NCBI RefSeq assembly: GCF_023015965.1
Contig: NZ_JALKAN010000002.1
Coordinates: forward strand, 434,001 to 498,000
DNA: 64,000 nt
Direction: 5' to 3'
Source of the DNA: Allomuricauda sp. F6463D
GTDB lineage: Bacteria > Bacteroidota > Bacteroidia > Flavobacteriales > Flavobacteriaceae
Translations under genes and position numbers: made by a program
Notes under the pieces: model-generated
Database searches by the model: none
What the model saw: only the letters and a program-made list of their open reading frames with translations
Told to the model about the DNA's origin: nothing
Shown: positions 1,937 through 25,078 of the stretch, piece by piece
How the letters are laid out: every line of letters begins with the position of its first letter
Numbering within the stretch: the first letter of the stretch is position 1

Positions 1937-3361
1937 TTATTTTTTTGGCAAAGCTCGTGTCAACCAACCACTTTTATTGGCTGTTGCAATAGCGTATGGT
2001 GTAATCCAAAACAGCCCAAATGTATACAGTATGCTATAGGAGTAGGCCCAAAAAGATTCGGTCAAATTATATCGTTTGGCATAAAATAGTACCGGAAATG
2101 TTGTTAGCACCAATATGCTCACCAAAGTTGTACTTAAAAACAACAAGGGATGTGTAATCACAAAAAATAGCATAAAGACCAAAAATGGATAGCTCATTAC
2201 TATTTTAAAGAACTGGCTTAAAAATAATAGTCTTGTTCCTGTTTTGGGCCCTTTTCTAAAATTCTTAAATATGTATTTAGACATTTCTATGTTCTCCCGC
2301 ACATTGCTCCTGCCCCATCGTATGAACATCTTGTAAAGTCCTTTATATTTCTCTGGAACATTGGTATAAGCATATGCATTTCTTTGGAACAACACTTGAT
2401 AACCTTGTTTTAAAATCATATTGGTCATGGCCCTGTCCTCTCCTATATCCGATGGTTTGCCCATAAATGTTTGATTGATCCATTCTGGCAGGCAGGCATA
2501 TACCGCTTCGCTTCTGTATGCTGCCAAAGCACCCGGGGTACACAAAACAGACTTTAAATTGCTCTCTGCCGACCGTACAAATTCAAAACTTAGTACAAAA
2601 CTTACATCCAACATTTTTGGCAAAAGCTCTTTCTCATTGTTAAGCACACGTATGTTTCCTGCCACCGCGCCACATTTTTCATTGGCAACAAAAGGAGATA
2701 CCAGGTTCCGAAGGGTGTCTTTATCTACTATGGAATCACTGTCCACCGTAACGAAAATTTCTCCATTTCCCTCGTTAAACCCTCTATAAAGCGCGTGACG
2801 TTTTCCTTTGTTTTTGGGCTGTTTGTAAATGGATACAAAATCTCCCAACTCTTTTTTGGCTTCTTTAATCCACTCCCATGTGTCGTCTTGGCTTCCATCG
2901 TCTATAGCGATCAGTTGTAATTTCTCTTTTGGAAAATCGCTTTCGGATAAACTTATTAAGGTGTGGTACACTTGTTTCCCTTCATTATAGGCTGGAACAA
3001 TAACCGTACATGTAGGAAGTTCCTTGTCAGCTACTGAAACAATGGGACGATATCTAAAGTAATTATATATGGTATAAATAAAGAACATCGCCTTGAACAC
3101 GAACAATCCTCCCGCAACATACATAAAGGTAGATCCCAAGATCGTTGTCATTCTTTCTAAATTGAACTGCTCAAAATCATTCTGAAGCACAACTATCAAA
3201 TTTAATGCTCCCAACATCAGAACAAAGGTGCTTCCCATCACAAAAACCCCCCATGCATCTGCGGTTTCAAAAAAGGTTTTAATTACATTATGTTTAAAAA
3301 TGTGTTTGATGCGGCTTATAAAGCCGTCTTTTTTTTCCTGATCGGGTAGTGTGTTCTCCAT
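1937..3361 (-). CDS. Membrane-bound family 2 glycosyltransferase (polysaccharide synthase-like)
   Basis: This 474-residue inner-membrane processive-type glycosyltransferase probably polymerises and extrudes a beta-linked polysaccharide. Two N-terminal membrane segments (~36-60 and ~72-98) precede a cytosolic GT-A domain, followed by three C-terminal membrane segments (~380-404, 406-427, 437-459). The GT2 motifs are in order: DDG at 154-156, the metal-binding DSD at 207-209, an acceptor-site CTPGALAAYR at 274-283, the catalytic-base EDR at 308-310, and RWGRS at 348-352 in place of the QxxRW of cellulose, chitin and hyaluronan synthases. The arrangement is like hyaluronan synthase or NodC. The neighbouring nucleotide-sugar dehydrogenase could supply a uronic acid donor. 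The polymer is unknown. ATG start; it diverges from the Gfo/Idh/MocA gene. Confidence 0.85.
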   Translation of the reverse strand: MENTLPDQEKKDGFISRIKHIFKHNVIKTFFETADAWGVFVMGSTFVLMLGALNLIVVLQNDFEQFNLERMTTILGSTFMYVAGGLFVFKAMFFIYTIYNYFRYRPIVSVADKELPTCTVIVPAYNEGKQVYHTLISLSESDFPKEKLQLIAIDDGSQDDTWEWIKEAKKELGDFVSIYKQPKNKGKRHALYRGFNEGNGEIFVTVDSDSIVDKDTLRNLVSPFVANEKCGAVAGNIRVLNNEKELLPKMLDVSFVLSFEFVRSAESNLKSVLCTPGALAAYRSEAVYACLPEWINQTFMGKPSDIGEDRAMTNMILKQGYQVLFQRNAYAYTNVPEKYKGLYKMFIRWGRSNVRENIEMSKYIFKNFRKGPKTGTRLLFLSQFFKIVMSYPFLVFMLFFVITHPLLFLSTTLVSILVLTTFPVLFYAKRYNLTESFWAYSYSILYTFGLFWITPYAIATANKSGWLTRALPKK

Positions 3362-3605
3362 TTTTTCTTAGTCCTTATTGATAGTGTTCCTGATTTACGT
3401 TTAATACCTCCGTTTAGATGTTCATTATATATTATTTAACCTCTTTAGCCCCATTTTTAGTAAAACTTCGCTATTTGTTAACATTGAGGTGCATTATGTG
3501 CAACTAAGGGATATAGATTACGAAGAATGGATTGGGACGAATAATCACTAGGATTTCTCTTAGCCTTTTTTGTATCTTGAGATCTCCATAAATCAAACTA
3601 ACAAA

Positions 3606-5030
3606 ATGCAAAGAAGAAAGTTTATAAAAAACGCAGCGGCAGCTTCGGCCGCCTTTTCCATTGTTCCAAGTCATGTATTGGGCAAAACCCATATACCTCC
3701 AAGTGACACCCTTTATGTTGCTGGTTTTGGTGTTGGCGGTAGAGGTAACGGGGTTATTAATGGTTTTAATGACACAGGACGTGTGAAATTTGTGGCGTTC
3801 TGTGATGTAGATGACCGCAGGGCAAAACAGACTTACGAAAAATTCCCAGATGTAAAACGATATAAGGATTTTAGAAAAGTTTTTGACACCCATTTAAGTG
3901 ATATTGATGCCATAATGGTGGCTACTCCAGACCATACCCATGCAACCATAGCGCTCCCTTTTATGCGTGAAAAAAAACACGCTTACGTTGAAAAACCACT
4001 TACCCATAACATCCATGAAGCACGCTTAATGACTCAAGTTGCCAAGGAAAACGGTATTGTAACCCAAATGGGAAATCAAGGTGCCTCCAGTGATGATAGC
4101 CGCATTGCACGTGAATGGGTGGAGTCCGGTATTATTGGCAATGTGCACACCATAGATTGCTGGACAAACCGACCTGTATGGCCACAAGGCGTGCCCATGC
4201 CCACTAAAAAAGACCGTATCCCCAAAGAATTAGATTGGGATCTATGGTTAGGACCAGCTGCAATGCGTGATTATAATGATGCCTACCTTCCATTTAAATG
4301 GAGAGGATTTTGGGACTTTGGAACCGGAGCTTTGGGCGATATGGGTTGCCATATTATGGAAACCCCTTTTAGCGTACTCGACCTTGGTTATCCTACTGAA
4401 GCAGAGGCAAGCTGTACCACGGTTTGGGTGGACGATTTTGTAGAGGCCGATTACAGCCACTCCTGCCCTCCTTCCTCCAAAATCCACTTAAAATTTGACC
4501 ACGAAGTACATGGGGATATTGCACTAAATTGGTATGATGGTGGCATAAAACCAAACCTTCCGGATGAGTTAAAAGATGGAGAAACCATTGGGGATACCGG
4601 CGGTGGAACCGTAATTTACGGAGACAAAGGAATATTGGTCTGTGATACCTATTCCAGAAATGCACGTCTGTTGCCTTCTGATATGATGGATCTTTATAAA
4701 TCTCCCGCTCCAAAATACCCAAGAGTGACTGGCGGAATGGATGGACATGTAGCCAATTTTGTGGATGGTTGTCAAAAAGGCACACCAACATCTTCCAATT
4801 TTGAAAAAGCTGGTAAATTGACCGAAACCGTGTTGATGGGTAACTTGGCAGTTAAAGCATATCAATACAAAGAGTTGCAACCCGGTAAAAAACCAACGGA
4901 TTGGAACCCATACAATTCTCCCGGAAGAAGAAAGCTAAAATGGGATGGTGAGAACATGAAGATCACCAATTATGAAAAAGCCAACGAGTGGGTAACCCGT
5001 GAGTATCGCCAAGGTTGGGAGTTGAAATAA
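3606..5030 (+). CDS. Gfo/Idh/MocA-family oxidoreductase with twin-arginine signal
   Basis: This 474-residue NAD(P)-dependent oxidoreductase probably acts on a sugar or sugar derivative outside the cytoplasm. The ATG at 3606 puts MQRRKFIKNAA at the N-terminus, a twin-arginine type signal with an Ala-rich h-region ending near VLGK. The frame extends to a TTG at 3570, but those 12 residues would bury the signal, so 3606 is preferred. A glycine-rich nucleotide-binding turn (GFGVGGRG) follows the signal; ATPDHTHA and EKPLTHNIHEAR (EKP motif) are hallmarks of the family. Members of this Bacteroidetes/Planctomycetes Tat subgroup often sit with sugar-degradation genes. A second paralogue lies at 15470. 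An intrinsic terminator follows the stop codon. Confidence 0.88.
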   Translation: MQRRKFIKNAAAASAAFSIVPSHVLGKTHIPPSDTLYVAGFGVGGRGNGVINGFNDTGRVKFVAFCDVDDRRAKQTYEKFPDVKRYKDFRKVFDTHLSDIDAIMVATPDHTHATIALPFMREKKHAYVEKPLTHNIHEARLMTQVAKENGIVTQMGNQGASSDDSRIAREWVESGIIGNVHTIDCWTNRPVWPQGVPMPTKKDRIPKELDWDLWLGPAAMRDYNDAYLPFKWRGFWDFGTGALGDMGCHIMETPFSVLDLGYPTEAEASCTTVWVDDFVEADYSHSCPPSSKIHLKFDHEVHGDIALNWYDGGIKPNLPDELKDGETIGDTGGGTVIYGDKGILVCDTYSRNARLLPSDMMDLYKSPAPKYPRVTGGMDGHVANFVDGCQKGTPTSSNFEKAGKLTETVLMGNLAVKAYQYKELQPGKKPTDWNPYNSPGRRKLKWDGENMKITNYEKANEWVTREYRQGWELK

Positions 5031-5050
5031 TTCAATTAGTTATTTAATAG

Positions 5051-5080
5051 AAAATGGCCCGTTTTGGGCCATTTTTATTT
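5051..5080 (+). terminator. Intrinsic terminator after the Gfo/Idh/MocA gene
   Basis: A GC-rich hairpin AATGGCCC-gtttt-GGGCCATT is followed by a T-rich run (TTTTATTTT). It lies 20 bases downstream of the stop codon at 5028-5030 and on the same strand. Confidence 0.85.
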
Positions 5081-5137
5081 TGCCCCCTTGTTTGATTGCT
5101 TACTAGACTATCCAACAAATCAACAGATAGGTTCTTT

Positions 5138-5225
5138 GTCATTTCGAACCGAAGGTAGAGCGCGTGAGTAATCTCAGGTAGAATAAATTTCTCAATCGTC
5201 ACATTGTTTCTCATATCGAAATGAC
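5138..5225. repeat. Interspersed palindromic element (GTCATTTCGA ... TCGAAATGAC)
   Basis: A perfect 10-base inverted repeat (GTCATTTCGA at 5138-5147 and its complement at 5216-5225) bounds an 88-base element lying wholly between two convergent genes. Related ends (GTCATTT or GTCATTCTGAG) recur at 23024-23121 and 41158-41168, all intergenic. The form matches short REP/MITE-like intergenic elements common in Bacteroidetes chromosomes. No coding content. Confidence 0.6.
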
Positions 5226-5275
5226 AAATTTGTATTGCTAATTGGAGATTGTTTATTGTTCGTTGAGAACTGTAA

Positions 5276-6349
5276 TTAAAACAATTTCATTTGTCCATCT
5301 TTGTATTGCTCATGAAGTTCCATGTTCAATTTTGGAAAGGTTCTTTCTTTAAAATATCGAAGTCTGGCCAGATTCGCCATTTCATGGATTTGTTCGGCTA
5401 TCTTTCCCTCCCCACGTGATCTTGTACCAAAACGACTATCATTTAGAGATCCTCCATGGCAATCTTGGATTTGGTGCAGCACTTTATCGGCTCTATCTGG
5501 CATTGCTTTTTTTATCCAATCAGAAAATATTTGACCTATTGCCCCATTTAACCGTACCACCGTAAATCCAAATGAAAGAGCTCCATGGTCTGCCACAGCC
5601 TTGGCCATTGGCAATAATTCATGCGAGTTAATCCCTGGTATTATGGGTGCTAACATCGCATTGACAGGGATATTGTTTTCGGATAATATTTGAATAGTTT
5701 TCAATCTTTTTTTGATTGATGCCGTTCTGGGCTCCAATTTCCGTCTCGTTTTTTCCGATAATGAGGTTACTGAAACATTGACCCCCACCAAACGATCTTT
5801 GTTCAATTCCTTTAGAATATCCAAGTCTCGTAAGACCAAAGCATTTTTAGTGATGATGCCTACGGGATGCCGATACTTTAAAAATACTTCAAGGCATTTT
5901 CGGGTTATTTCAAACTTCTGTTCCGCGGGTTGGTAGCAATCCGTATTGCCGGACAATACAATCGTCTGCGCTTTCCACTTTTTGTGCTTTATTTTAGCTT
6001 CCAAAAGCTCTGGAGCCGATTTCTTCACTAATATCTGTCTTTCAAAATCCAGACCTGCGCTATAGCCCCAATACTCGTGTGTGTTTCTGGCATAGCAATA
6101 GATACATCCATGTTCGCAACCTTGGTAAGGATTCATGGAAAACATCATCCCAACATCCGGGCTATCCACTTTGTTCACAATGGTCTTAGGGAAAATGGGA
6201 ATGTATTTTGTTTTGTTACTTTCCGCTACTTCGCCTTCCAATCGGCAAAATTCCAAAAAATCATCCCGCATTTCAAAATCATACTGCAAAAACTTATTGC
6301 CCGTGTTTTTTTGGGCTCCCCTTCCTTTTATATACTTTGCGGATGACAT
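5276..6349 (-). CDS. PA0069-family radical SAM protein
   Basis: This 357-residue cytosolic protein has a radical-SAM cluster motif of the CxxxCxxC form at Cys78, Cys82 and Cys85 (CEHGCIYC), preceded by MNPYQG and followed by YARNTHEYWG. That combination is characteristic of the PA0069/Rv2578c family (related to SplB-like radical SAM proteins). The [4Fe-4S] cluster would cleave S-adenosylmethionine to a 5'-deoxyadenosyl radical. The substrate of the family has not been established to my knowledge. Residues ~124-250 carry the expected barrel strands (VLSGNTDCYQP, GIITKNALV, NAMLAPIIPG). ATG start; a -7-like TATTTTTG lies 16 bases upstream. It ends facing the palindromic repeat rather than a clear terminator. 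Confidence 0.88.
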   Translation of the reverse strand: MSSAKYIKGRGAQKNTGNKFLQYDFEMRDDFLEFCRLEGEVAESNKTKYIPIFPKTIVNKVDSPDVGMMFSMNPYQGCEHGCIYCYARNTHEYWGYSAGLDFERQILVKKSAPELLEAKIKHKKWKAQTIVLSGNTDCYQPAEQKFEITRKCLEVFLKYRHPVGIITKNALVLRDLDILKELNKDRLVGVNVSVTSLSEKTRRKLEPRTASIKKRLKTIQILSENNIPVNAMLAPIIPGINSHELLPMAKAVADHGALSFGFTVVRLNGAIGQIFSDWIKKAMPDRADKVLHQIQDCHGGSLNDSRFGTRSRGEGKIAEQIHEMANLARLRYFKERTFPKLNMELHEQYKDGQMKLF

Positions 6350-6364
6350 TTATAGGATTTGTTC

Positions 6365-6372
6365 CAAAAATA
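6365..6372 (-). promoter_or_regulatory. Candidate -7 element for the PA0069 radical SAM gene
   Basis: On the minus strand the sequence reads TATTTTTG, matching the Bacteroidetes -7 consensus TAnnTTTG, 16 bases upstream of the ATG at 6349. I found no convincing -33 TTG at the expected distance, so the call is weak. Confidence 0.35.
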
Positions 6373-6452
6373 TGGATTATTTCCTTTTTTGCTTGGAGTT
6401 AATAGACAAGTTTTTAATAACAATATAAAAGTTGGTTCTTAATTGACTCCAC

Positions 6453-6480
6453 AAAAAAAGCTGGGCATTGCCCAGCTTTT
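6453..6480 (-). terminator. Intrinsic terminator of the collagen-like lipoprotein gene
   Basis: The hairpin AGCTGGGC-att-GCCCAGCT (6459-6477) is followed, in minus-strand direction, by a seven-T run. It lies 48 bases beyond the stop codon of the gene ending at 6525. Confidence 0.88.
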
Positions 6481-6524
6481 AACTAATGGTTAGGTGCCCC
6501 AAGGGGAAAATATCCTTTACATAT

Positions 6525-7169
6525 TTATTCCAAACCAAAATAATCTGCCACAGCATTGTAATCGCTGGTGTCTACACCGGCTGTTTTTAGTTCGCTCATT
6601 AGGCTTTCTTTGGAGTTTTTATTTGCCTGTGAAAGTTCGACAGCTATAACATAAAAATTTACATAGAGTCCATCCGGAACTACATAAGCTGAATTGTTAT
6701 CAGAGTTCCAAAATGAAACTTCCACTTGAGGAACACTTACGTTTATATAAAGAGTTGTATGTACGAGATTGGATATTAATGAACCTGGTAGTGGGAATAT
6801 ATTACCATTTTCAGATTCTAAATAAAAAAAATAAGCATAATCATTTACCTCTTCTGCTTGAATAGGAAAAGGAAAATCTAATTCTGAATTACTAAATCCA
6901 TTAAGCAACACTGACCATCTTTGTACATTGGCATTACCTGTAACACCTTGTTCTCCTTGACAATCCATTGCATCATAATTTCCATCTTCATTGATATCTT
7001 CATTGGCATCACCAGTTCCATTGCCGTTAAGATCCCAACAGCTTATCCCATCAGTACCAGCATCACCTGCTATTCCTTGTTGACCTTTTTCTCCATCTTC
7101 TCCCGAACAGGAAACCAAAATAACAGCCATGGATACCATGGCCATACATACTAATTTGAAAGATTTCAT
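6525..7169 (-). CDS. Secreted lipoprotein with collagen-like Gly-rich and acidic DxNxDG segments
   Basis: This 214-residue protein starts with a lipoprotein signal (hydrophobic h-region, then ILVSC with lipidated Cys21). Directly after it come Gly-X-X repeats (GEDGEKGQQG, IAGDAGTDG) as in collagen-like bacterial surface proteins. An acidic segment then reads DLNGNGTGDANEDINEDG, resembling EF-hand/dockerin calcium loops, and a second GEQGVTGN repeat follows. The remaining ~130 residues are a predicted beta-rich domain with no motif I recognise. Flavobacterial genomes often encode short collagen-like lipoproteins of this layout whose function is unknown. It is transcribed alone, with a -7-like element upstream and a strong terminator downstream. 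Confidence 0.8.
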   Translation of the reverse strand: MKSFKLVCMAMVSMAVILVSCSGEDGEKGQQGIAGDAGTDGISCWDLNGNGTGDANEDINEDGNYDAMDCQGEQGVTGNANVQRWSVLLNGFSNSELDFPFPIQAEEVNDYAYFFYLESENGNIFPLPGSLISNLVHTTLYINVSVPQVEVSFWNSDNNSAYVVPDGLYVNFYVIAVELSQANKNSKESLMSELKTAGVDTSDYNAVADYFGLE

Positions 7170-7204
7170 AATTTTTTTGTTTTAAAATTGGGTTAATAAT
7201 ACCC

Positions 7205-7212
7205 CAAAAGTA
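7205..7212 (-). promoter_or_regulatory. Candidate -7 element for the collagen-like lipoprotein gene
   Basis: Minus-strand TACTTTTG matches TAnnTTTG and lies 36 bases upstream of the ATG at 7169. No clear -33 TTG is seen at 19-21 bases. Confidence 0.4.
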
Positions 7213-7336
7213 AATGGTATTCATAGGTGCATTTCACCCTAATTAACACAGGCGGTCTACCATTTGATGAATGGCACAAATGAATTGATAGAGATTTAAA
7301 TATGTAGGTTTTTTCTTTCTTATTTGTCGGTTAACT

Positions 7337-7386: not shown

Positions 7387-8937
7387 TTATCTAAAATCTA
7401 CCTTAACCAATTGTTTTCTGCTTCCTCTTTTTGCGTAGAAAAGCATTGTATCCTCCATTTCGTCCTTCAATGGCTTGGAGACCATTAGCGGCAACCTGGC
7501 TTCTTGCTGGTCTATGATTTTTTCATAGTCCATAACTCCATTTTTATCCAATGATATCATGAACACATTACGGTTTCTGCTAAATCCTTGCTTAAAGATC
7601 AATCGTTCACTATTGATCAATTGAGGGTTTTCAGCAGCGGTGCAGATAAAAAAATAGGTGTTGCCATCTTTGCAGAACGAACTGTACGAAGCATAGGCTC
7701 CATCGCCCTGGGTCACTTCGGTCTTATTGATATTCCTTGCCCATTCCATAGTTCCGTTCGAATCCAATTTAACGCTTACGATATCATTGTGGTGGTAGCG
7801 TTCAATTTTTACACGTTGTCCTGCCCCAGTGGTTTCCAAACCTGATGAAACAAAATATTCTTCAGCATTAAAGAAAATCTCTTGGTTGTCGGTCACCTCA
7901 ACTCCTTTAAAAATTAGATTTTTGATAACCTGGTCCTCTTCCCTTCCAAACTTATCGTCCATAAACTGTTGTGAGAATGGATTATATTTCTGTGATTGGA
8001 TGGCCAAAGAACTAGGGTTTAGGCCAAAATATGCGATACCATTATATCTATTATTTTTTCTATCCGCATAAAAACCAACACAGACCAACATATTCTTGGT
8101 TAAAACAGGATATAGCGCTTCAGGATATTTACCAGGGTCCACGAATGATTGTATTTGATTTCCAAATTGCGAAACCTTGATCAATTCGTACTGAAACTTT
8201 CTTTCATCCACCCGAAAACGTCTCTTTTTAAAGTAAGCCTTGCTCACAATATAGGCCGATTGTAAGTCAGGTGAAAAAACTACATTCTCGAAAGCATAAT
8301 TTTTTTCCTCAATCTCAGCAGAGAAATCATATTCGAATTTTTTGTTCAAAGCCGTATCAAACATATGGATTATATGCTTGTTGTTCTTTCCTCTTTTGTG
8401 ATGTGTACTGATTACAAAGCCGGTTTTATCTTCATCAAATAGAATAGCAGTGGTGAACCCTCGCGAAAAATCACGGTTATAATAATTCTTGCCAACAGGA
8501 TTTTCCACCTCTTGCGATGCTATGGAAAGTAGTTTTTTAGGTTTAAAGTTGAAATCGATTATGGGACTGCTATGCACCCAATATTCATATTCACCCCTTA
8601 AGTAATTATAATCAAGAAACATAAGGTGCAACTGACCGTTCTTTAGAAATCCATTGATAAAATCCAGTCCCTTTAACTTATAGTTGTACTCGGATACAAG
8701 TTCAAGGTCACTGTTGTATTTTTCAATGAGATAACCCTTGGGTTTAAGAATCAACCCTTGGTAATAAGCACGTACCAAAACATATCCACCAGCGTCATCC
8801 TCTTCTATGGCGACTAAGTTGGAATAACGGTGTTTATCTTTGTATTTTTCCCCAAAATCATAGGAAACGGGCATTTTCTGTGCATTTACCAAAGTGGTAA
8901 GCACAAAACAACATAAAATAAATAAGTTCTTTTTCAT
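7387..8937 (-). CDS. Unrecognised secreted protein, possibly beta-propeller-like
   Basis: I do not recognise this family. The ATG at 8937 gives a clean signal peptide (MKKNLFILCCFVLTTLVNAQ, cleavage after NAQ); the frame runs seven codons further upstream to 8958, but that would add a hydrophilic tail before the signal. The mature ~496 residues are rich in alternating hydrophobic and aromatic strands (for example YVLVRAYYQG, AYIVSKAYF, VFMISLDKNG), which suggests repeated beta-sheet blades. There is no lipobox and no T9SS tail, so it may be periplasmic. The start is 24 bases from the end of the enoyl-CoA hydratase gene on the same strand, suggesting one transcript. Confidence 0.75.
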   Translation of the reverse strand: MKKNLFILCCFVLTTLVNAQKMPVSYDFGEKYKDKHRYSNLVAIEEDDAGGYVLVRAYYQGLILKPKGYLIEKYNSDLELVSEYNYKLKGLDFINGFLKNGQLHLMFLDYNYLRGEYEYWVHSSPIIDFNFKPKKLLSIASQEVENPVGKNYYNRDFSRGFTTAILFDEDKTGFVISTHHKRGKNNKHIIHMFDTALNKKFEYDFSAEIEEKNYAFENVVFSPDLQSAYIVSKAYFKKRRFRVDERKFQYELIKVSQFGNQIQSFVDPGKYPEALYPVLTKNMLVCVGFYADRKNNRYNGIAYFGLNPSSLAIQSQKYNPFSQQFMDDKFGREEDQVIKNLIFKGVEVTDNQEIFFNAEEYFVSSGLETTGAGQRVKIERYHHNDIVSVKLDSNGTMEWARNINKTEVTQGDGAYASYSSFCKDGNTYFFICTAAENPQLINSERLIFKQGFSRNRNVFMISLDKNGVMDYEKIIDQQEARLPLMVSKPLKDEMEDTMLFYAKRGSRKQLVKVDFR

Positions 8938-8961
8938 GGTCTGGCTAGGTTTAGCCAATAG

Positions 8962-9744
8962 TCATGATCCTGGGAAATCTGCTTTGCGTTTTTCCAAAAA
9001 TGCGGAGGTTCCTTCTTTAAAGTCATCCGTTCCAAAGCAATTGCCAAAGGCATCTATTTCCACCGAATAACCATCAGCTTCATACTTAAAACCAGCATTT
9101 ATCGCTTTTATTGCGTGTTTTATGGCAACCATGGAATTATTCGATATCCTGCTCCCAATTTTTACACAAAACGGCAACAACTCTTCGGAAGATACTACAT
9201 GATTGACCAATCCGTAACCAAAAGCTACATCGGAATCGATCATGCCTGCAGTCATGATCATTTCCATGGCCCTTCCTTTTCCAACCAATTGAGGCAATCG
9301 CTGTGTCCCACCATATCCGGGTATAACACCTAATGAAACTTCTGGTAGACCCATTCTGGCATTGCTGCTGGCCACTCTAAAATGACATGCCATGGCCAAC
9401 TCCAAACCACCTCCAAGAGCAAATCCATTGATAGCTGCTATTACAGGGGTTGAAAGATTTTCCACCAAATCGAATAAATTTCGCTGACCGGACGCCGCCA
9501 ACTGACGACCTTCTTTTACCGAAAAATGAGCAAATTCAGAGATATCTGCACCTGCTACAAAAGCTTTTTCTCCCTTTCCAGTAATAATGATCACCTTAAT
9601 ATCTTTATCCTCATCCAGCTCCTTAAACGCCACATGCAGTTCCTCTATAGTTCTTTTATTGAGGGCATTGAGCTTTTTTGGCCTGTTTATGGTTATCGTG
9701 GCCAGATTGTTTTCTTCTTCAATGTAGATGTTTTCGAAATCCAT
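8962..9744 (-). CDS. Enoyl-CoA hydratase/isomerase family (crotonase)
   Basis: This 260-residue cytosolic enzyme hydrates trans-2-enoyl-CoA to 3-hydroxyacyl-CoA, probably in beta-oxidation or amino-acid degradation. The crotonase features are all present: AFVAGADISEF (~61-71) forming part of the CoA/oxyanion site, NGFALGGGLELAMAC with catalytic Glu115, and GLPEVSLGVIPGYGGTQRLP with catalytic Glu135. Both glutamates are 20 residues apart, as in mitochondrial crotonase, so hydratase activity is likely retained. Length is normal. The neighbours are a sensor kinase upstream (46-base gap) and an unknown secreted protein downstream; no other fatty-acid gene is nearby, so its pathway is not shown by context. 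Confidence 0.92.
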   Translation of the reverse strand: MDFENIYIEEENNLATITINRPKKLNALNKRTIEELHVAFKELDEDKDIKVIIITGKGEKAFVAGADISEFAHFSVKEGRQLAASGQRNLFDLVENLSTPVIAAINGFALGGGLELAMACHFRVASSNARMGLPEVSLGVIPGYGGTQRLPQLVGKGRAMEMIMTAGMIDSDVAFGYGLVNHVVSSEELLPFCVKIGSRISNNSMVAIKHAIKAINAGFKYEADGYSVEIDAFGNCFGTDDFKEGTSAFLEKRKADFPGS

Positions 9745-9790
9745 ATGTATACTAATGTTTGAAACGGCTTATAATATTTAACCGAAACTA

Positions 9791-11299
9791 TTATTGTTGT
9801 TCTTTTGGAAATTTGACACAAAAAACCGTCCCTTTACCAACTTTTGAAGTAAAAGTAATGGTTCCTCCATAGTTTTCCACAATGTTCTTTACCATACCCA
9901 AACCGAGTCCGGTTCCACTAGATTTAGTGGTAAACTTAGGTTCAAAAATCTTGTCTTTATACTCATCGGAGATTCCTACCCCATTATCAGCAACAGAAAT
10001 TTTTACTTCTGGGCCATCGGACGCAACGGTGACCAAAATTCGTGGTGAATCTACACCAGGTACTGCTTGTGTCGCATTTTTTACCAAATTCGTAATTACA
10101 CGTATGAGTTGAGTACGATCTAATTTGGCGATAATTTCTTCTTCGTCAGCAATAAAATGAATGTAATCCTCGGTAAAGATCTCCAGGGCCAGCCTTACAA
10201 CTTTAATCACGTTCAAGGTCTCATTTTGTTGGGCAGGCATATCCGCAAAACTTGAAAACGCCGTGGCAATGTTGCTCATGGTGTCAATTTGTTGGATCAA
10301 GGTTTTGGAGAACTCCTTTACCTTTTTATGGATATCAGGGTCATTGGGATCGAACTTAAGCTCAAAACTCTGTACGGAAAGGCGCAAGGGCGTTAACGGG
10401 TTTTTTATTTCGTGAGCCACTTGTTTGGCCATTTCTCGCCAGGCCTGTTCTCGTTCACTTCTGGCCAATTTTACCGCACTTTCCTCCAACTCATCAATCA
10501 TACTATTGTAAGAATCTACCAATTTGCCAATTTCTTCACCCGGACTTTCCAAATAAATTTTTTCGTTCTCTTGGGTCAAGTTGGTGCGGTTCATTTTATC
10601 TGAAACCGCCTGAAGTGACCTTGTGATGTATTTAGAAATGAAATAAGCCAAAACAATGGCAATTATGAGCATTAAAACATACACCATCCCCAACCTGAAG
10701 AGAAATTCACGAAGCTCCATATTATTGAAGGTGTTATCTTCAAAATAAGGAAGGTGCAATATCCCTATAGGTTTAAATTTGAGGTCGTGGATAAAGGTAT
10801 AAGTAGACTGATAATTGTCTCCTGCCGCCCTTTTTACCTCTACAAATCGAGTTTCGCCACTCTCCCTCAAAACATTGAGCACTTCTGCATCAAGACACGC
10901 GGCAATTATATTCGACTCGAAACTTGGCCGTGAATTTTTAACCAGATTGCCCTCCAAATCATAGATGCTGAAATTTACATTTTGAATGTTGGCAATCTTA
11001 TAAATTTCCTCACTAAAAATAAGGTGCAAGTTTTCCGTGGTGACCGGATATGTTGTTTCCTGTAAGGTATAATTGATACTTTTAAGCAGTTGTTCCTCCT
11101 TGCGTTCCAATCTTTCAGTATGGTAGTCGTTCCCTTGTTCTTTATATTGATAGATCGTAACACCAGCAATAAGAACGGAGGCAAGCACCACCAAGGTGAT
11201 CATGGCAACAAATATGCGTGAACGTAAGGAAAGTTTTCTTAACAAGCTCGCTGGATTTGATGTTAAATTTAAGCAATTATCGAGCCAAATATGATTCAA
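9791..11299 (-). CDS. NtrY-like transmembrane sensor histidine kinase
   Basis: This ~500-residue inner-membrane kinase has TM1 at ~29-50, a ~150-residue periplasmic sensor region, and TM2 at ~203-224. A HAMP segment (~222-275) leads to a HisKA domain with HEIKNPLTPLRLS (phospho-His296) and an HATPase domain with N-box NLVKNATQAV (~404-413), DNGVGI (~438) and GTGLGLGMVKNIVE (~462). HEIKNPLTPL is typical of NtrY-type kinases that control sigma54 response regulators. No response regulator is adjacent. The reported frame begins with TTG at 11299; no ATG occurs before the first membrane segment and a TTG at 11245 is an alternative, so the exact start is unresolved. Confidence 0.88.
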   Translation of the reverse strand: MNHIWLDNCLNLTSNPASLLRKLSLRSRIFVAMITLVVLASVLIAGVTIYQYKEQGNDYHTERLERKEEQLLKSINYTLQETTYPVTTENLHLIFSEEIYKIANIQNVNFSIYDLEGNLVKNSRPSFESNIIAACLDAEVLNVLRESGETRFVEVKRAAGDNYQSTYTFIHDLKFKPIGILHLPYFEDNTFNNMELREFLFRLGMVYVLMLIIAIVLAYFISKYITRSLQAVSDKMNRTNLTQENEKIYLESPGEEIGKLVDSYNSMIDELEESAVKLARSEREQAWREMAKQVAHEIKNPLTPLRLSVQSFELKFDPNDPDIHKKVKEFSKTLIQQIDTMSNIATAFSSFADMPAQQNETLNVIKVVRLALEIFTEDYIHFIADEEEIIAKLDRTQLIRVITNLVKNATQAVPGVDSPRILVTVASDGPEVKISVADNGVGISDEYKDKIFEPKFTTKSSGTGLGLGMVKNIVENYGGTITFTSKVGKGTVFCVKFPKEQQ

Positions 11300-21859: not shown

Positions 21860-22999
21860 ATGGACATTTTTGGAAAGATCAAAGAAAAGCTCAGTAATGA
21901 ATTTATTGATATTATTGAGTGGCTCGACTATACGGATGACACCATTGCTCACCGTTTTGAACGCTATCAAAATGAAATAAAAAACGGCGCTAAACTGATT
22001 GTTCGCGAAGGCCAGACCGCTGTTTTTATCAACGAAGGCCAATTGGCCGATGTATTTGGTCCGGGCACTTACGATCTGACCACACAAAACTTGCCTATTT
22101 TAACCACCCTGAAGGGTTGGAAATATGGATTCAACTCACCTTTTAAAGCTGAAGTCTACTTTGTGAACACCCACTTGTTCACCGATGAAAAATGGGGTAC
22201 CAAAAGTCCCATTACTTTAAGTGATGATCGTTTTGGTTTGGTAGAGATAAGAGCCTTCGGCACCTATACTTTCAAAATTTCCAATGCTGGAACGTTTATC
22301 AAGGATATTGTTGGAACGGACAGCAACTTTACCAATTTTGAAATCAATGAACATTTAAAAAGTTTGATCGCCACCCGATTCACCGATACTGTGGGCGAAG
22401 CCAATCTTCCCATTGAGCTATACGCAGCCAACACGTCGGAATTATCCGAAACCTGCCAGGAAGTTATGGCTCCAGAGTTTGAAACGGTCGGTATTTCTTT
22501 GGAGAGGTTCTACATTGAAAATGTATCGATGCCCGAAGATCTTAAAAAAGAAATCTTTGAGTATAGCCGTATTGATAAATTGGACCTTGACAAGTTGACC
22601 AAATTCAAGACTGCCAAGGCCATTGAAGCTGCCGCACAAAATGAAGGGGGCACCGCAGGAGCCGGAATGGGCATGGGCATGGGATTTGTACTTGCCCAAC
22701 AGATGGGTGGTATGATGGGTGGAAACATGCAGGCCGCTCCGCAAAGAGCAGCCCAACCAGCGGCTGGGGCCGTTCCTCCTCCTATGCCAACACAAACCAT
22801 GTACTATTATGCCACGAACGGCATACAGCATGGTCCGGCGAGCTTTGAACAAATGCAATCTCTTTTTGCATCTAGGGCCATTAATCGTGATAGTTTGGTT
22901 TGGAAGCAGGGTATGTCCGCATGGACCGCGTTAAAAGATGTGGAAGAGTTAAAATCGTTTTTGGGCGGTAATACACCTCCTCCATTGCCAACGGAGTAA
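21860..22999 (+). CDS. SPFH-domain protein with C-terminal GYF_2 domain (YdjI/virion-core-like)
   Basis: This 379-residue protein begins with FGKIKEKLSNEFIDIIEW and VREGQTAVFINEGQLADVFGPGTYDL, typical of the SPFH subgroup called virion-core-like, to which Bacillus YdjI belongs. The SPFH domain spans ~20-235. A Gly/Met-rich linker (GAGMGMGMGF, QQMGGMMGG, ~262-290) and an Ala/Pro-rich stretch lead to a GYF_2 (DUF4339) domain at ~314-365 (YYYATNGIQHGPASFEQM, then WKQGMSAWTAL), ending in PPPLP. There is no membrane segment, so attachment must be through a partner; YdjI is held at the membrane by zinc-ribbon membrane proteins, and one such gene follows here. It probably scaffolds membrane microdomains or senses envelope stress; this is inference. 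Confidence 0.85.
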   Translation: MDIFGKIKEKLSNEFIDIIEWLDYTDDTIAHRFERYQNEIKNGAKLIVREGQTAVFINEGQLADVFGPGTYDLTTQNLPILTTLKGWKYGFNSPFKAEVYFVNTHLFTDEKWGTKSPITLSDDRFGLVEIRAFGTYTFKISNAGTFIKDIVGTDSNFTNFEINEHLKSLIATRFTDTVGEANLPIELYAANTSELSETCQEVMAPEFETVGISLERFYIENVSMPEDLKKEIFEYSRIDKLDLDKLTKFKTAKAIEAAAQNEGGTAGAGMGMGMGFVLAQQMGGMMGGNMQAAPQRAAQPAAGAVPPPMPTQTMYYYATNGIQHGPASFEQMQSLFASRAINRDSLVWKQGMSAWTALKDVEELKSFLGGNTPPPLPTE

Positions 23000-23023
23000 T
23001 AATACCTATTGTTATGCTGATCT

Positions 23024-23121
23024 GTCATTTCTAGCACAGTCTAGAAATCCATGAAGCATCACTGGTAAATACCCTTTTTTAATCGTACATGAGTGAGATT
23101 CTTCGTTTCACTCAGAATGAC
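23024..23121. repeat. Interspersed palindromic element, diverged copy (GTCATTTCTAG ... CTCAGAATGAC)
   Basis: Imperfect inverted ends GTCATTTCTAG and CTCAGAATGAC bound ~98 bases lying between the SPFH gene and the zinc-ribbon gene. The ends and spacing resemble the element at 5138-5225. It ends 12 bases before the start of the zinc-ribbon gene and could form a hairpin in a shared transcript. Confidence 0.5.
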
Positions 23122-23132
23122 AAAACAAGCCA

Positions 23133-24224
23133 TTGGAAGACCAAAAAATTCAAAAAACTGAACTCAAAAAAGCCTGTGTAAATTGTGGTGCAGAGCTTAC
23201 CTATAAACCTGGCACCACAAGTATCAGTTGTGAATATTGTGGGCACGAGGAAACCATCGATGTTGACAAAAATGGCTTTGAGGAGCTGGAGCTTTATCCT
23301 TTCCTTAAGGAAATGGGCAGCCAAAGGCACAGCGAGGAAATCTCCATGCTACATTGCAAAAATTGTGGTGCGGACCAGCATGTGGAGGAAAACTACAAAT
23401 CGCTCCATTGTGTGTATTGCGGCCAGCCCTTGGTCCTTGAAGATGCGTATAAAGAAAATTGGATCTTACCGGGTGCGGTATTGCCTTTTCAAATTGATAA
23501 AAACCAATCTTTTACCATTTTTAAAAAATGGGTGAAAGGACTATGGTTTGCTCCGAACAACTTAAAAAAAGCAGCCCTAGACCCTCAGTTTACCAAAGGC
23601 CTCTATCTGCCCTATTGGACTTTTGACGCACAGTTATATGCTTCCTATACGGGTCAACGAGGCGAATATTATTATGTAACCAAAAGAGTGCGAAATTCCA
23701 ATGGCAAAATGGTGACCAAAAGAGTTAGGAAAACAAGGTGGTATCCGGCCTCGGGGGAAGTATCTGGGTTTGTGGACGACACTTTGATTAAAGCCTCCCA
23801 TCAAAAAACGGGACGGATTCCGGGTAAAATTGCCTCATGGGATTTGAAAAAGCTCCAACCGTTCAATACTGGGTTCCTTTCCGGGTTTGTCACCGAAAAA
23901 TATACCATTCCACTCAAAGATGGCCATCTCCATTCCAAAGAAGCAGCGAAAGGCATCGCCAACACATGGTGCAGACGCGACATTGGCGGTGATACCCAAC
24001 GTGTACTCTCCATGAACATGAAACTATCCGAAGAGACCTTTAAGCACGTCCTGTTGCCCGTTTATGTGAGTGCTTATCGCTACAATGGCAAGGAATACAA
24101 CTTTTATATCAATGGAGAAAATGGTCGAATATCAGGCACCCGACCCTATAGTTTTTGGAAGATATTTTTTACGGTTTTAGCGGTACTTGTAGCAATCGGG
24201 GTGATTGTTGTTCTATCCAAGTAA
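23133..24224 (+). CDS. Double zinc-ribbon membrane protein (YdjG-like)
   Basis: This 363-residue protein has two N-terminal zinc ribbons: CVNC...CEYC (Cys15, 18, 33, 36) and CKNC...CVYC (Cys75, 78, 93, 96). A ~240-residue central region rich in Tyr and Trp (LYLPYWTFDAQLYASYTGQ, LLPVYVSAYRYNGKEYNFY) leads to a single C-terminal membrane helix (~340-360). Homologues are often mislabelled as helicase or primosomal protein because of the ribbons. The layout is like B. subtilis YdjG, which with YdjH recruits the SPFH protein YdjI and PspA to the membrane. The start is TTG at 23133; a TGA lies in frame at 23118 and no ATG precedes the first ribbon. It follows the SPFH gene by 133 bases containing a palindromic repeat. 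Confidence 0.82.
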   Translation: MEDQKIQKTELKKACVNCGAELTYKPGTTSISCEYCGHEETIDVDKNGFEELELYPFLKEMGSQRHSEEISMLHCKNCGADQHVEENYKSLHCVYCGQPLVLEDAYKENWILPGAVLPFQIDKNQSFTIFKKWVKGLWFAPNNLKKAALDPQFTKGLYLPYWTFDAQLYASYTGQRGEYYYVTKRVRNSNGKMVTKRVRKTRWYPASGEVSGFVDDTLIKASHQKTGRIPGKIASWDLKKLQPFNTGFLSGFVTEKYTIPLKDGHLHSKEAAKGIANTWCRRDIGGDTQRVLSMNMKLSEETFKHVLLPVYVSAYRYNGKEYNFYINGENGRISGTRPYSFWKIFFTVLAVLVAIGVIVVLSK

Positions 24225-24229
24225 TAGGA

Positions 24230-24961
24230 TTAAAAACCAATGCCCACAATTAAATCAAAAGGTACTTTTTCTGTTTGCACAGATTTGGTCTGAACTTTAA
24301 TTTTAATCTTTTCAGGTGCTTCCTTGAACACAACGGTATTCTCTTCCAGACCAAGTCCCATGTTTCTATATTCCTCGCTATCATCACCACCTATCACTTC
24401 GATATTGCCAATAGGAGTTTCTGTATCCAGAGTATACAAATGGTATTCTGTACCGTCCTGCAACGTAGCTCCCCCCATATCTAAAATAGCTATCTTTCCT
24501 ATTTCAGAATCAATTGAGGACTGAATGTTTTCTTTAAAAGAGAATTCCAATGTATTTTCCTCAGAAGTATCCCCAACATAATTGATCAAGAAGGATCCTT
24601 TCATATCGAATGTTGTAGCTCCTTTTTGTGGTACTCCGTCAATCTCTACCTGTAAATCGTAATAAGAACCATCGGAGCTTACATTACCGTATGTATTTTC
24701 CACAATCAGGCCTTGTCCGTTTTTCAAAAAATCAAACCCCGTATTGTCGGTAATCTGAGTTACTTCAGATTTGTTAATGTCCAAATTATAGAATTGCTTT
24801 TCAGCATCCAACGGCAACCTAAGCTTAAGTGTGGTTCTATAATTACCTTCGTACTCTTTGTTGATGCAAATACTTATAGTGCTCATCTGAGCCTGCAATA
24901 GGCAAAATGGACATAGGGCAATGAAGACTTTTAGAAAAATTTTGAGGTCAAATGTTCTCAT
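24230..24961 (-). CDS. Unrecognised secreted protein
   Basis: I do not recognise this family. Starting at the ATG at 24961, the protein has 243 residues and a signal peptide ending FCLLQAQ near residue 25. The frame extends ten codons further to 24991, which would only lengthen the n-region. The mature part is probably all-beta, with several acidic stretches (GDTSEENTLEF, GGDDSEEYRN), and has no lipobox or T9SS tail. Residues near the C-terminus (EKIKIKVQTKSVQTEKVPFD) alternate in a strand-like way. It is convergent with the zinc-ribbon gene, with only 5 bases between the stop codons. Confidence 0.65.
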   Translation of the reverse strand: MRTFDLKIFLKVFIALCPFCLLQAQMSTISICINKEYEGNYRTTLKLRLPLDAEKQFYNLDINKSEVTQITDNTGFDFLKNGQGLIVENTYGNVSSDGSYYDLQVEIDGVPQKGATTFDMKGSFLINYVGDTSEENTLEFSFKENIQSSIDSEIGKIAILDMGGATLQDGTEYHLYTLDTETPIGNIEVIGGDDSEEYRNMGLGLEENTVVFKEAPEKIKIKVQTKSVQTEKVPFDLIVGIGF

Positions 24962-25078
24962 GCTGTAGTTTCTCTTAAAAGTATGGAACAAACCATTTTA
25001 AAATCAAAAATTTGTGCGAATGGCATGATTTCGTACACAACCTTCAATAATTATTTGATTTCAATGAATTATATGATT

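Follow-up and report, generated by a model that had tools for sequence, protein, structure and literature searches.

An SPFH-GYF protein and its double zinc-ribbon partner in Allomuricauda: a candidate PspA-independent form of the YdjI-YdjG membrane complex

The studied relatives of the SPFH and zinc-ribbon proteins considered here are regarded as helpers of PspA. What, then, is the function of such a pair in a genome from which PspA is missing? The question is raised by a 64,000-nucleotide stretch of the genome of Allomuricauda sp. F6463D (contig NZ_JALKAN010000002.1, positions 434,001 to 498,000; hereafter the window), in which two plus-strand genes lie head to tail, 133 bp apart: one for an SPFH protein ending in a GYF domain and one for a double zinc-ribbon (ZnR) protein with a C-terminal membrane helix. 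A first-pass annotation had reported this two-gene arrangement and the lack of PspA in the window, and had suggested that the pair could be a reduced envelope-stress or membrane-microdomain module of the Flavobacteriia. Pfam searches, alignment and hydropathy bear out the observation. The interpretation survives in part: the types of protein, their adjacency and the absence of PspA all hold, whereas a reduced module specific to Flavobacteriia is not supported. We favor, with a probability of roughly 0.6, the view that these two proteins form the PspA-independent core of a membrane complex of the YdjI-YdjG type, in which the SPFH protein is probably a soluble, ring-forming scaffold and the ZnR protein probably holds it at the membrane.

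The SPFH protein (379 aa, ATG start, 21860..22999), identified by Pfam, hydropathy scan and fold match, is dominated by a Band_7_1 domain (PF13421; residues 31-238, 21950..22573) that scores 328.5 bits against a cut-off of 24. A Gly/Met-rich linker separates this domain from a PPPMP motif (residues 306-310, 22775..22789), which is followed by a GYF_2 domain (PF14237; residues 315-364, 22802..22951; 68.9 bits against a cut-off of 25.8), the sole example found in the genome, and by a PPPLP motif at the C terminus (residues 373-377, 22976..22990). Across an alignment of 37 sequences, P306, P307 and P310 of the first motif and P373, P374, P375 and P377 of the second are invariant. The C-terminal zinc ribbon that is a feature of YdjI-type proteins is not present in the window protein, GYF_2 and PPPLP standing there instead, as the first-pass annotation had noted of the GYF domain. 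The hydropathy scan revealed no membrane helix in this protein, and the same is true of 60 of the 63 relatives encoded close to a ZnR gene in the cross-phylum survey described below.

The second gene (23133..24224) encodes a protein of 363 aa with a TTG start; in 36 orthologues the first start codon of the frame is ATG in 32, TTG in two and GTG in two. Its two ribbons (C15, C18, C33 and C36, residues 15-36, 23175..23240; C75, C78, C93 and C96, residues 75-96, 23355..23420) were defined by alignment, and all eight cysteines are invariant among 78 aligned sequences, a set that omits L102, L123 and L165 of the 80 cross-phylum loci. Between the ribbons and the membrane helix lies a conserved, β-rich domain of around 230 residues (approximately 105-335, 23445..24137) containing PYWTFD and NGxxGxxxG motifs. 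The helix itself (residues 344-362 by hydropathy, 24162..24218; 341-362 in the AlphaFold2 model) is the only membrane stretch, and is C-terminal, in 37 of 37 family members. No Pfam family and no NCBIfam model matches the ZnR protein over its cut-off.

Of 200 genomes of Bacilli, 40 encode a full-length ZnR relative. All 40 regions were read, and the order PspA-ZnR-TPM-SPFH was found in 20, SPFH-ZnR in eight, SPFH-ZnR-TPM in seven, ZnR-TPM-SPFH in three, and PspA-ZnR-SPFH and ZnR-TPM in one each; region L235 ends 842 bp upstream of the ZnR gene, and that of L243 has no SPFH gene. Five of the 21 PspA genes were checked by Pfam, four passing the cut-off and the fifth being a short frame below it, and both TPM genes that were checked were confirmed. 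The most frequent order is that of pspA-ydjG-ydjH-ydjI in Bacillus subtilis, as given in the available part of PMC8581546. In the operon of this order that served as reference, all four genes were identified, by Pfam or by hhalign. Its ZnR protein aligns with our ZnR family over nearly the whole length of the latter (hhalign E 1.7e-33, 306 columns, 26% identity), and its SPFH protein with our SPFH family over 262 columns (E 9.3e-29). On the strength of this comparison with a Bacilli operon of the same order, we take the second gene to be of the YdjG type by descent, and the first-pass assignments of the two proteins as YdjI- and YdjG-like are upheld.

The association of the two genes is strict among relatives of the window genome. 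Among 149 Flavobacteriaceae genomes, 41 have the ZnR gene (its aligned products being 56-76% identical to that of the window), and a close SPFH orthologue is present in the identical 41 (Fisher p 1.5e-33); an SPFH match of some kind was detected in 44, the additional three being distant or confined to GYF. As the first-pass annotation had anticipated, adjacency is conserved, in 41 of 41 holders, 37 from regions that were read and four from coordinates (one SPFH gene being cut by a contig end). In all 37 regions the SPFH gene comes first, on the same strand, with a gap of 18-224 bp, and the pair has no third gene as a regular neighbor. The neighborhood is largely syntenic in flavobacteria, and the ZnR protein could on that account be regarded as an unrelated zinc-ribbon protein that is a neighbor through synteny only. 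This is already refuted: the pair persists with differing flanks (the window, L032, L051, L053 and L067) and across phyla, the partners are matched even when unlinked, and the ZnR protein is homologous to the YdjG-type protein.

A wider search places the pair well beyond this family. Full-length ZnR relatives were found in 14 of 395 Bacteroidota genomes (one cut by contig ends), and a strong Band_7_1 gene is present in every one of these, adjoining in 11 and on another contig in three belonging to a single genus. Ribbon-only matches of 18.7-27.4 bits (19 of 33 genomes; frames of 597-958 aa), like similar weak matches in the Bacilli scan (14 of 54 genomes), were left outside the family; judged from their size, they appear to resemble large zinc-ribbon proteins such as PriA. 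A scan of GTDB returned at least 585 ZnR relatives, of which the best 80 were kept. These represent an uneven sample, because they were ranked by similarity to an Enterococcus protein, and come, by their titles, from Clostridia, Bacilli, Bacteroidota, Alphaproteobacteria, Spirochaetota, Planctomycetes, Verrucomicrobia and others. In 63 of the 80 loci the ZnR gene has an SPFH gene no farther than 6 kb away, which precedes it in 58 and is separated from it by no more than 250 bp in 57; the remaining 17 genomes all hold a Band_7_1 protein over the cut-off elsewhere, the weakest scoring 28.6 bits at a contig end. Twelve plasmid records contain a ZnR relative, with hosts in Vibrio, Paracoccus, Pseudorhodobacter, Comamonas, Tsukamurella and Enterococcus gallinarum (the last with a TPM gene third), and an SPFH gene adjoins it in all 12, by coordinates or annotation.

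The GYF-tailed form of the pair is itself found in Alpha- and Gammaproteobacteria, Actinomycetota (Tsukamurella), Spirochaetota and Planctomycetes, and a bare pair occurs in Bacilli. Since the family is homologous to the YdjI- and YdjG-type proteins of Bacilli and the pair spans many phyla, it is not a flavobacterial peculiarity, contrary to what the first-pass annotation had supposed. Two of these loci merit separate comment. On the Paracoccus ferrooxidans plasmid pFER4 (L092, 3554-8272), genes annotated as a toxic anion resistance protein and DUF2927 precede the pair and are possible further partners. The pair on a contig of Enemella evansiae TN21-6 (L141, 3740-7062), a genus that we take to belong to the Actinomycetota, groups closely with Roseivivax on the ZnR tree; it may be a transferred copy or a mislabelled assembly and is not used as support.

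The same survey bears on the possibility that the ribbons bind nucleic acid, with the pair acting as a regulator of transcription or RNA that is tethered to the membrane. A Comamonas homologue has been named automatically as a 'TFIIB-type zinc ribbon', weak Pfam matches to TFIIB-like ribbons (E 0.01 or better) occur in 59 of 78 members, and one of 49 SPFH proteins scanned carries HTH_17. Ribbon-to-ribbon matches are generic, though, with many other ribbon families matching too, a Band_7_1 SPFH gene is present in the locus or genome for 80 of 80 loci, and the studied relatives act at the membrane, according to what is available of PMC8581546. We consider such a role very unlikely.

The relationship with PspA proves to be loose. 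PspA (PF04012) was detected neither in the window nor elsewhere in its genome, which is 99.98% complete; as a control, the profile was positive in nine of 14 known genomes. A PspA gene lies near the ZnR gene in two of the 80 cross-phylum loci, and the order PspA-ZnR-SPFH is seen outside Bacilli at L156 and L174. The 49 genomes surveyed for PspA, which represent 50 of the 63 linked loci less L172, divide into 21 with PspA over the cut-off somewhere and 28 without, and in the eight Flavobacteriaceae pair genomes that have PspA its coordinates never adjoin the pair. The ZnR tree (106 rows, quick method, LG+G4, support from the SH-like approximate likelihood ratio test (SH-aLRT) only, unrooted) omits L102, nine Rhodobacterales-type GYF loci through thinning and nine of the 40 Bacilli regions, and carries warnings for the long branches of L094 and L156 and the letter make-up of nine rows. 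PspA linkage appears at two separate points on it, with TPM present at one of them and absent from the other, corresponding to at least four changes. Given that the GYF pair is found in many phyla and that bare pairs stand alongside full PspA operons in Bacilli, the lack of a PspA neighbor is the common state outside Bacilli, and PspA is optional for the pair.

These data speak to the alternative of a reduced phage-shock module, in which an ancestral pspA-ydjG-ydjH-ydjI operon lost pspA and ydjH in this lineage. The coexistence of full operons and shorter forms in Bacilli would suit such a history, as would the somewhat higher frequency of PspA in Flavobacteriaceae genomes with the pair. The rarity of PspA beside the gene across phyla, its linkage at two separate places on the tree and its absence from more than half of the pair genomes all argue against loss, and we regard it as unlikely.

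The 63 linked SPFH C termini were assigned by custom hidden Markov models and CxxC counts to zinc ribbons (31), GYF (26), SHOCT (four) and helix-turn-helix (HTH)-like (two) types. A Pfam check of 49 SPFH proteins including that of the window agrees, with GYF_2 in 25, SHOCT in four, HTH_17 in one and various ribbons; the SPFH alignment comprised 48 of the 63 neighbors plus the window protein. Zinc-ribbon tails are found in all 38 complete SPFH genes of the 39 Bacilli regions that have one, and in Bacteroidota a SHOCT-like tail, identified by eye, replaces GYF in two of the 11 adjacent genes; the SHOCT assignments at L079, L080, L087 and L090 were made by eye. The tail is therefore interchangeable between zinc ribbon, GYF, SHOCT and HTH forms. 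SHOCT has been suggested to be an oligomerization domain, an idea that a first experiment did not support, as far as the available part of PMC3581485 relates.

Interchange is not random with respect to the partner. Mapped on the tree of the ZnR proteins, the four tail types require just three changes; with unlinked rows as a fifth label, the number is 10 against a mean of 40.4 for shuffled labels, none of 200 shuffles being as low. Three ZnR genes without an SPFH neighbor (L137, L148 and L168) fall inside the GYF clade (SH-aLRT 95), and the best unlinked Band_7_1 protein in each of their genomes has a GYF tail, as the clade predicts. Among all 17 genomes with an unlinked SPFH gene, three have GYF tails and lie within the clade, 13 have zinc ribbons and lie outside it and one is truncated where its contig stops, such that 16 of 16 readable cases fit; second Band_7_1 copies over the cut-off in four of the 17 (three with zinc ribbons, one contig-cut) leave this match unchanged. 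Nor does it merely reflect phylum, because Bacteroidota alone contain three tail types, each belonging to a different ZnR clade. The two proteins are co-inherited as a matched pair, which suggests that they may be in contact.

The SHOCT-like tail also occurs in loci of other composition. The genome of the window encodes a further, distant Band_7_1 protein about 92 kb from the pair, on the minus strand (L031, G000:C19:542000-560000, 8114-11120), with a SHOCT-like tail scoring 21.9 bits, below the cut-off of 27. Next to it are encoded a 366-aa DUF6620 protein and a single-ribbon (CxxC-CxxC) protein that matches no Pfam family. By Pfam, L062 likewise has a DUF6620 protein close to a Band_7_1 protein with a SHOCT-like tail, and a relative was seen by eye at L063; this is perhaps a separate SPFH system. 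At L090 (Bacteroidota genome G213, 2655-6155, minus strand), the SPFH gene, with a SHOCT-like tail by eye, precedes one for a single-ribbon protein of 526 aa that appears to have membrane helices, has a long additional C-terminal part and scores 71 bits against the ZnR profile; it is perhaps a longer version of the ZnR partner. At L087 (G413, 4171-7333, minus strand), an SPFH gene with such a tail is followed by genes for two single-ribbon proteins of 361 and 266 aa, which have no Pfam family and score only 33 and 22 bits against the ZnR profile, as if the partner had been split or duplicated.

GYF domains bind proline-rich peptides, and the first-pass annotation proposed that this one substitutes a partner interaction with Pro-rich sequences. 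Such an interaction is possible, with the ligand most economically found in the protein itself. A C-terminal polyproline motif, scored by pattern matching, is present in 25 of 26 linked GYF tails, the exception (L117) ending in PPPIQ, and in none of the 37 other tails; it is also present in two of the three unlinked GYF tails, the third ending in PPPIA. Examination of 30 of the 36 GYF_2 matches in 247 Bacteroidota genomes (of which L279, at least, is possibly a wrong frame) revealed PPP on both sides of the domain in 10 of 10 SPFH-GYF proteins and none of 20 other GYF_2 proteins, six of which have PPP downstream only and 14 none. The doubly flanked arrangement is therefore particular to the SPFH form, even if PPP downstream of GYF_2 is no rarity, and because the SPFH protein carries PPPxP on both sides of its GYF domain, the nearest ligand would be the same protein or its neighbor in an oligomer. 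Self-association between subunits is the simplest and most likely reading.

The alternative is that GYF recruits a separate proline-rich client, the flanking PPPxP motifs being spacers or autoinhibitory. The general binding preference of GYF domains would accommodate this, as would the downstream PPP runs of six other GYF_2 proteins and an AlphaFold2 model of the single chain that lacks confident docking of the tail. The near-universal polyproline ending of GYF tails in several phyla exceeds what a spacer would need, and no third gene accompanies the pair consistently. A separate client seems to us rather doubtful, and self-association of the GYF-tailed subunits is retained in what follows.

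Predicted structures add to the picture of the SPFH protein. Its AlphaFold2 model (mean predicted local distance difference test score (pLDDT) 73) matches prohibitin, SPFH-NfeD, flotillin, HflK/C and stomatin with Z of approximately 10-12.6 and root mean square deviations (rmsd) of 2.0-6.6, prohibitin giving Z 12.6 over 176-188 aligned residues (rmsd 5.0-5.3). The GYF part matches chain 8z9y_E of the plant TIC complex (Z 8.9, 59 aligned, rmsd 2.0). The ZnR model is of high confidence (mean pLDDT 90.2, predicted template modeling score 0.83), with strands of around 30 residues, and found no Foldseek match in the PDB at E 0.001; a second structure comparison (VIA) gave only a weak best match (4exr, Z 3.4, 63 aligned, rmsd 3.2). 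The best Foldseek candidates, staphylococcal pore-forming proteins (E 1.4e-3), were rejected as long-hairpin look-alikes, with a template modeling score of 0.13 and rmsd of 19.6-25.1. The corresponding domain of YdjG has been called YpeB-related (Ravi et al. 2024, PMC11237479, in the part available). A PepSY match at residues 309-335 of the ZnR protein (12.7 bits, E 0.16) and the 4exr match are too weak to confirm this relation.

Taken together, these features suggest how a PspA-independent core might operate. The SPFH protein, having no membrane helix, would form ring- or cage-shaped oligomers against the cytoplasmic surface of the membrane, an assembly that is probable given that its fold matches ring and cage formers. 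The ZnR protein, fixed in the membrane through its C-terminal helix, would by homology be the anchor or part of one, with its ribbons on the cytoplasmic side as in a tail-anchored protein; ribbons and β-domain would keep the scaffold at the membrane. The swappable tail would set what the scaffold binds, zinc ribbons serving in the PspA-linked versions and the GYF domain most likely engaging PPPxP of the same or neighboring subunits, thereby choosing or locking partners. The complex may then organize or stabilize stressed membrane with no need for PspA. Work on B. subtilis, in the part of PMC8581546 available, lends this model some plausibility: YdjI is soluble and without a membrane anchor, its membrane foci require YdjG and YdjH, the foci persist when pspA is deleted (YdjI also being overexpressed there), and loss of YdjI lowers membrane fluidity.

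Several observations weigh against the model. The same portion of PMC8581546 names YdjH, a TPM protein that the foci also require, as the likely anchor, and reports two-hybrid contacts between YdjG and YdjH and between YdjH and YdjI, that is, through YdjH; our pair has no TPM neighbor, two TPM profiles giving no match in any frame of the window, to which that search was confined. Matching of tail and partner could arise from joint inheritance without contact. The downstream PPP runs of other GYF_2 proteins count here too, as does the single-chain model, in which the proline tail is undocked and residues 370-373 have pLDDT below 50. Finally, unlinked PspA occurs in eight of 41 Flavobacteriaceae pair genomes compared with six of 108 others (p 0.023), which, with the 21 of 49 pair genomes across phyla, makes a loose link with unlinked PspA possible, and band 7 genes have been described beside pspA in Bacteroidota among other phyla (Popp et al. 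2022, PMC9239133, in the part available).

Some features of the locus stand apart from this argument. The 133-bp intergenic stretch (23000..23132, plus strand) folds into hairpins that recall a dispersed palindrome of flavobacteria, a reading that was dropped because the genome holds a single copy. Downstream of the pair, a converging gene on the minus strand (24230-24991) encodes a 253-aa protein, secreted as judged by eye and with no Pfam or NCBIfam match. In 31 of 40 Flavobacteriaceae regions, that of the window not being among them, the pair has a gene for a calcineurin-like metallophosphatase nearby, in most cases immediately downstream (for example L033, 8435-9163; one such gene was checked by Pfam).

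The proposed GYF-tailed, PspA-independent form of the YdjI-YdjG core is widespread and, as far as a literature search of limited coverage can tell, unstudied; that search found no published account of a PspA-free SPFH-ZnR pair. Because the core usually has no PspA neighbor, and often no PspA in the genome, Bacteroidota and Proteobacteria could serve for the study of membrane protection by SPFH scaffolds apart from the phage-shock response. The ZnR protein offers a conserved domain to which no Pfam family corresponds, and the pairing of GYF with PPPxP a simple mutational handle on assembly of an SPFH cage. More tentatively, SPFH-ZnR might be an old and general bacterial membrane scaffold for which PspA is one optional client, with the tail as a partner code inherited with ZnR; in the GYF lineage, subunits carrying both receptor (GYF) and ligand (PPPxP) might zip the cage to itself, a closure that stress or a further proline-rich protein could open or compete with.

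How, finally, does the pair compare with known systems? Prohibitin, SPFH-NfeD, flotillin, HflK/C and stomatin families are oligomeric membrane scaffolds. The window protein shares the SPFH fold with SPFH-NfeD (QmcA-YbbJ), HflK/C, prohibitin and flotillin, and hence probably their ring or cage assembly, but these have membrane anchors of their own and partners in NfeD or FtsH, whereas it is paired with a zinc-ribbon membrane protein. The resemblance to GltJ/AgmX of Myxococcus extends to the GYF_2 domain (NCBIfam GltJ model, 32.2 bits over residues 309-371 against a cut-off of 450; PDB 7z3c, E 1.2e-4, residues 315-375); only this part matches, and none of four neighbors scanned is a gliding protein. 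Ravi et al. (2024, PMC11237479), in the part available, describe YdjG as two ribbons, a YpeB/NTF2-like domain and a membrane segment, and couple it to a band-7-ZnR protein, as here; the coupling there is in Firmicutes, with pspA, and that part does not describe GYF-tailed or PspA-free cross-phylum pairs. The closest counterpart is pspA-ydjGHI of the σW regulon of B. subtilis, with which the pair shares a Band_7_1 SPFH protein without a membrane helix and a double zinc-ribbon membrane protein aligning over nearly its full length, the latter tested on the Bacilli operon of the same order. It differs in having neither pspA nor a ydjH/TPM neighbor, in placing the SPFH gene first and in ending that protein with GYF and PPPLP where YdjI carries a zinc ribbon.

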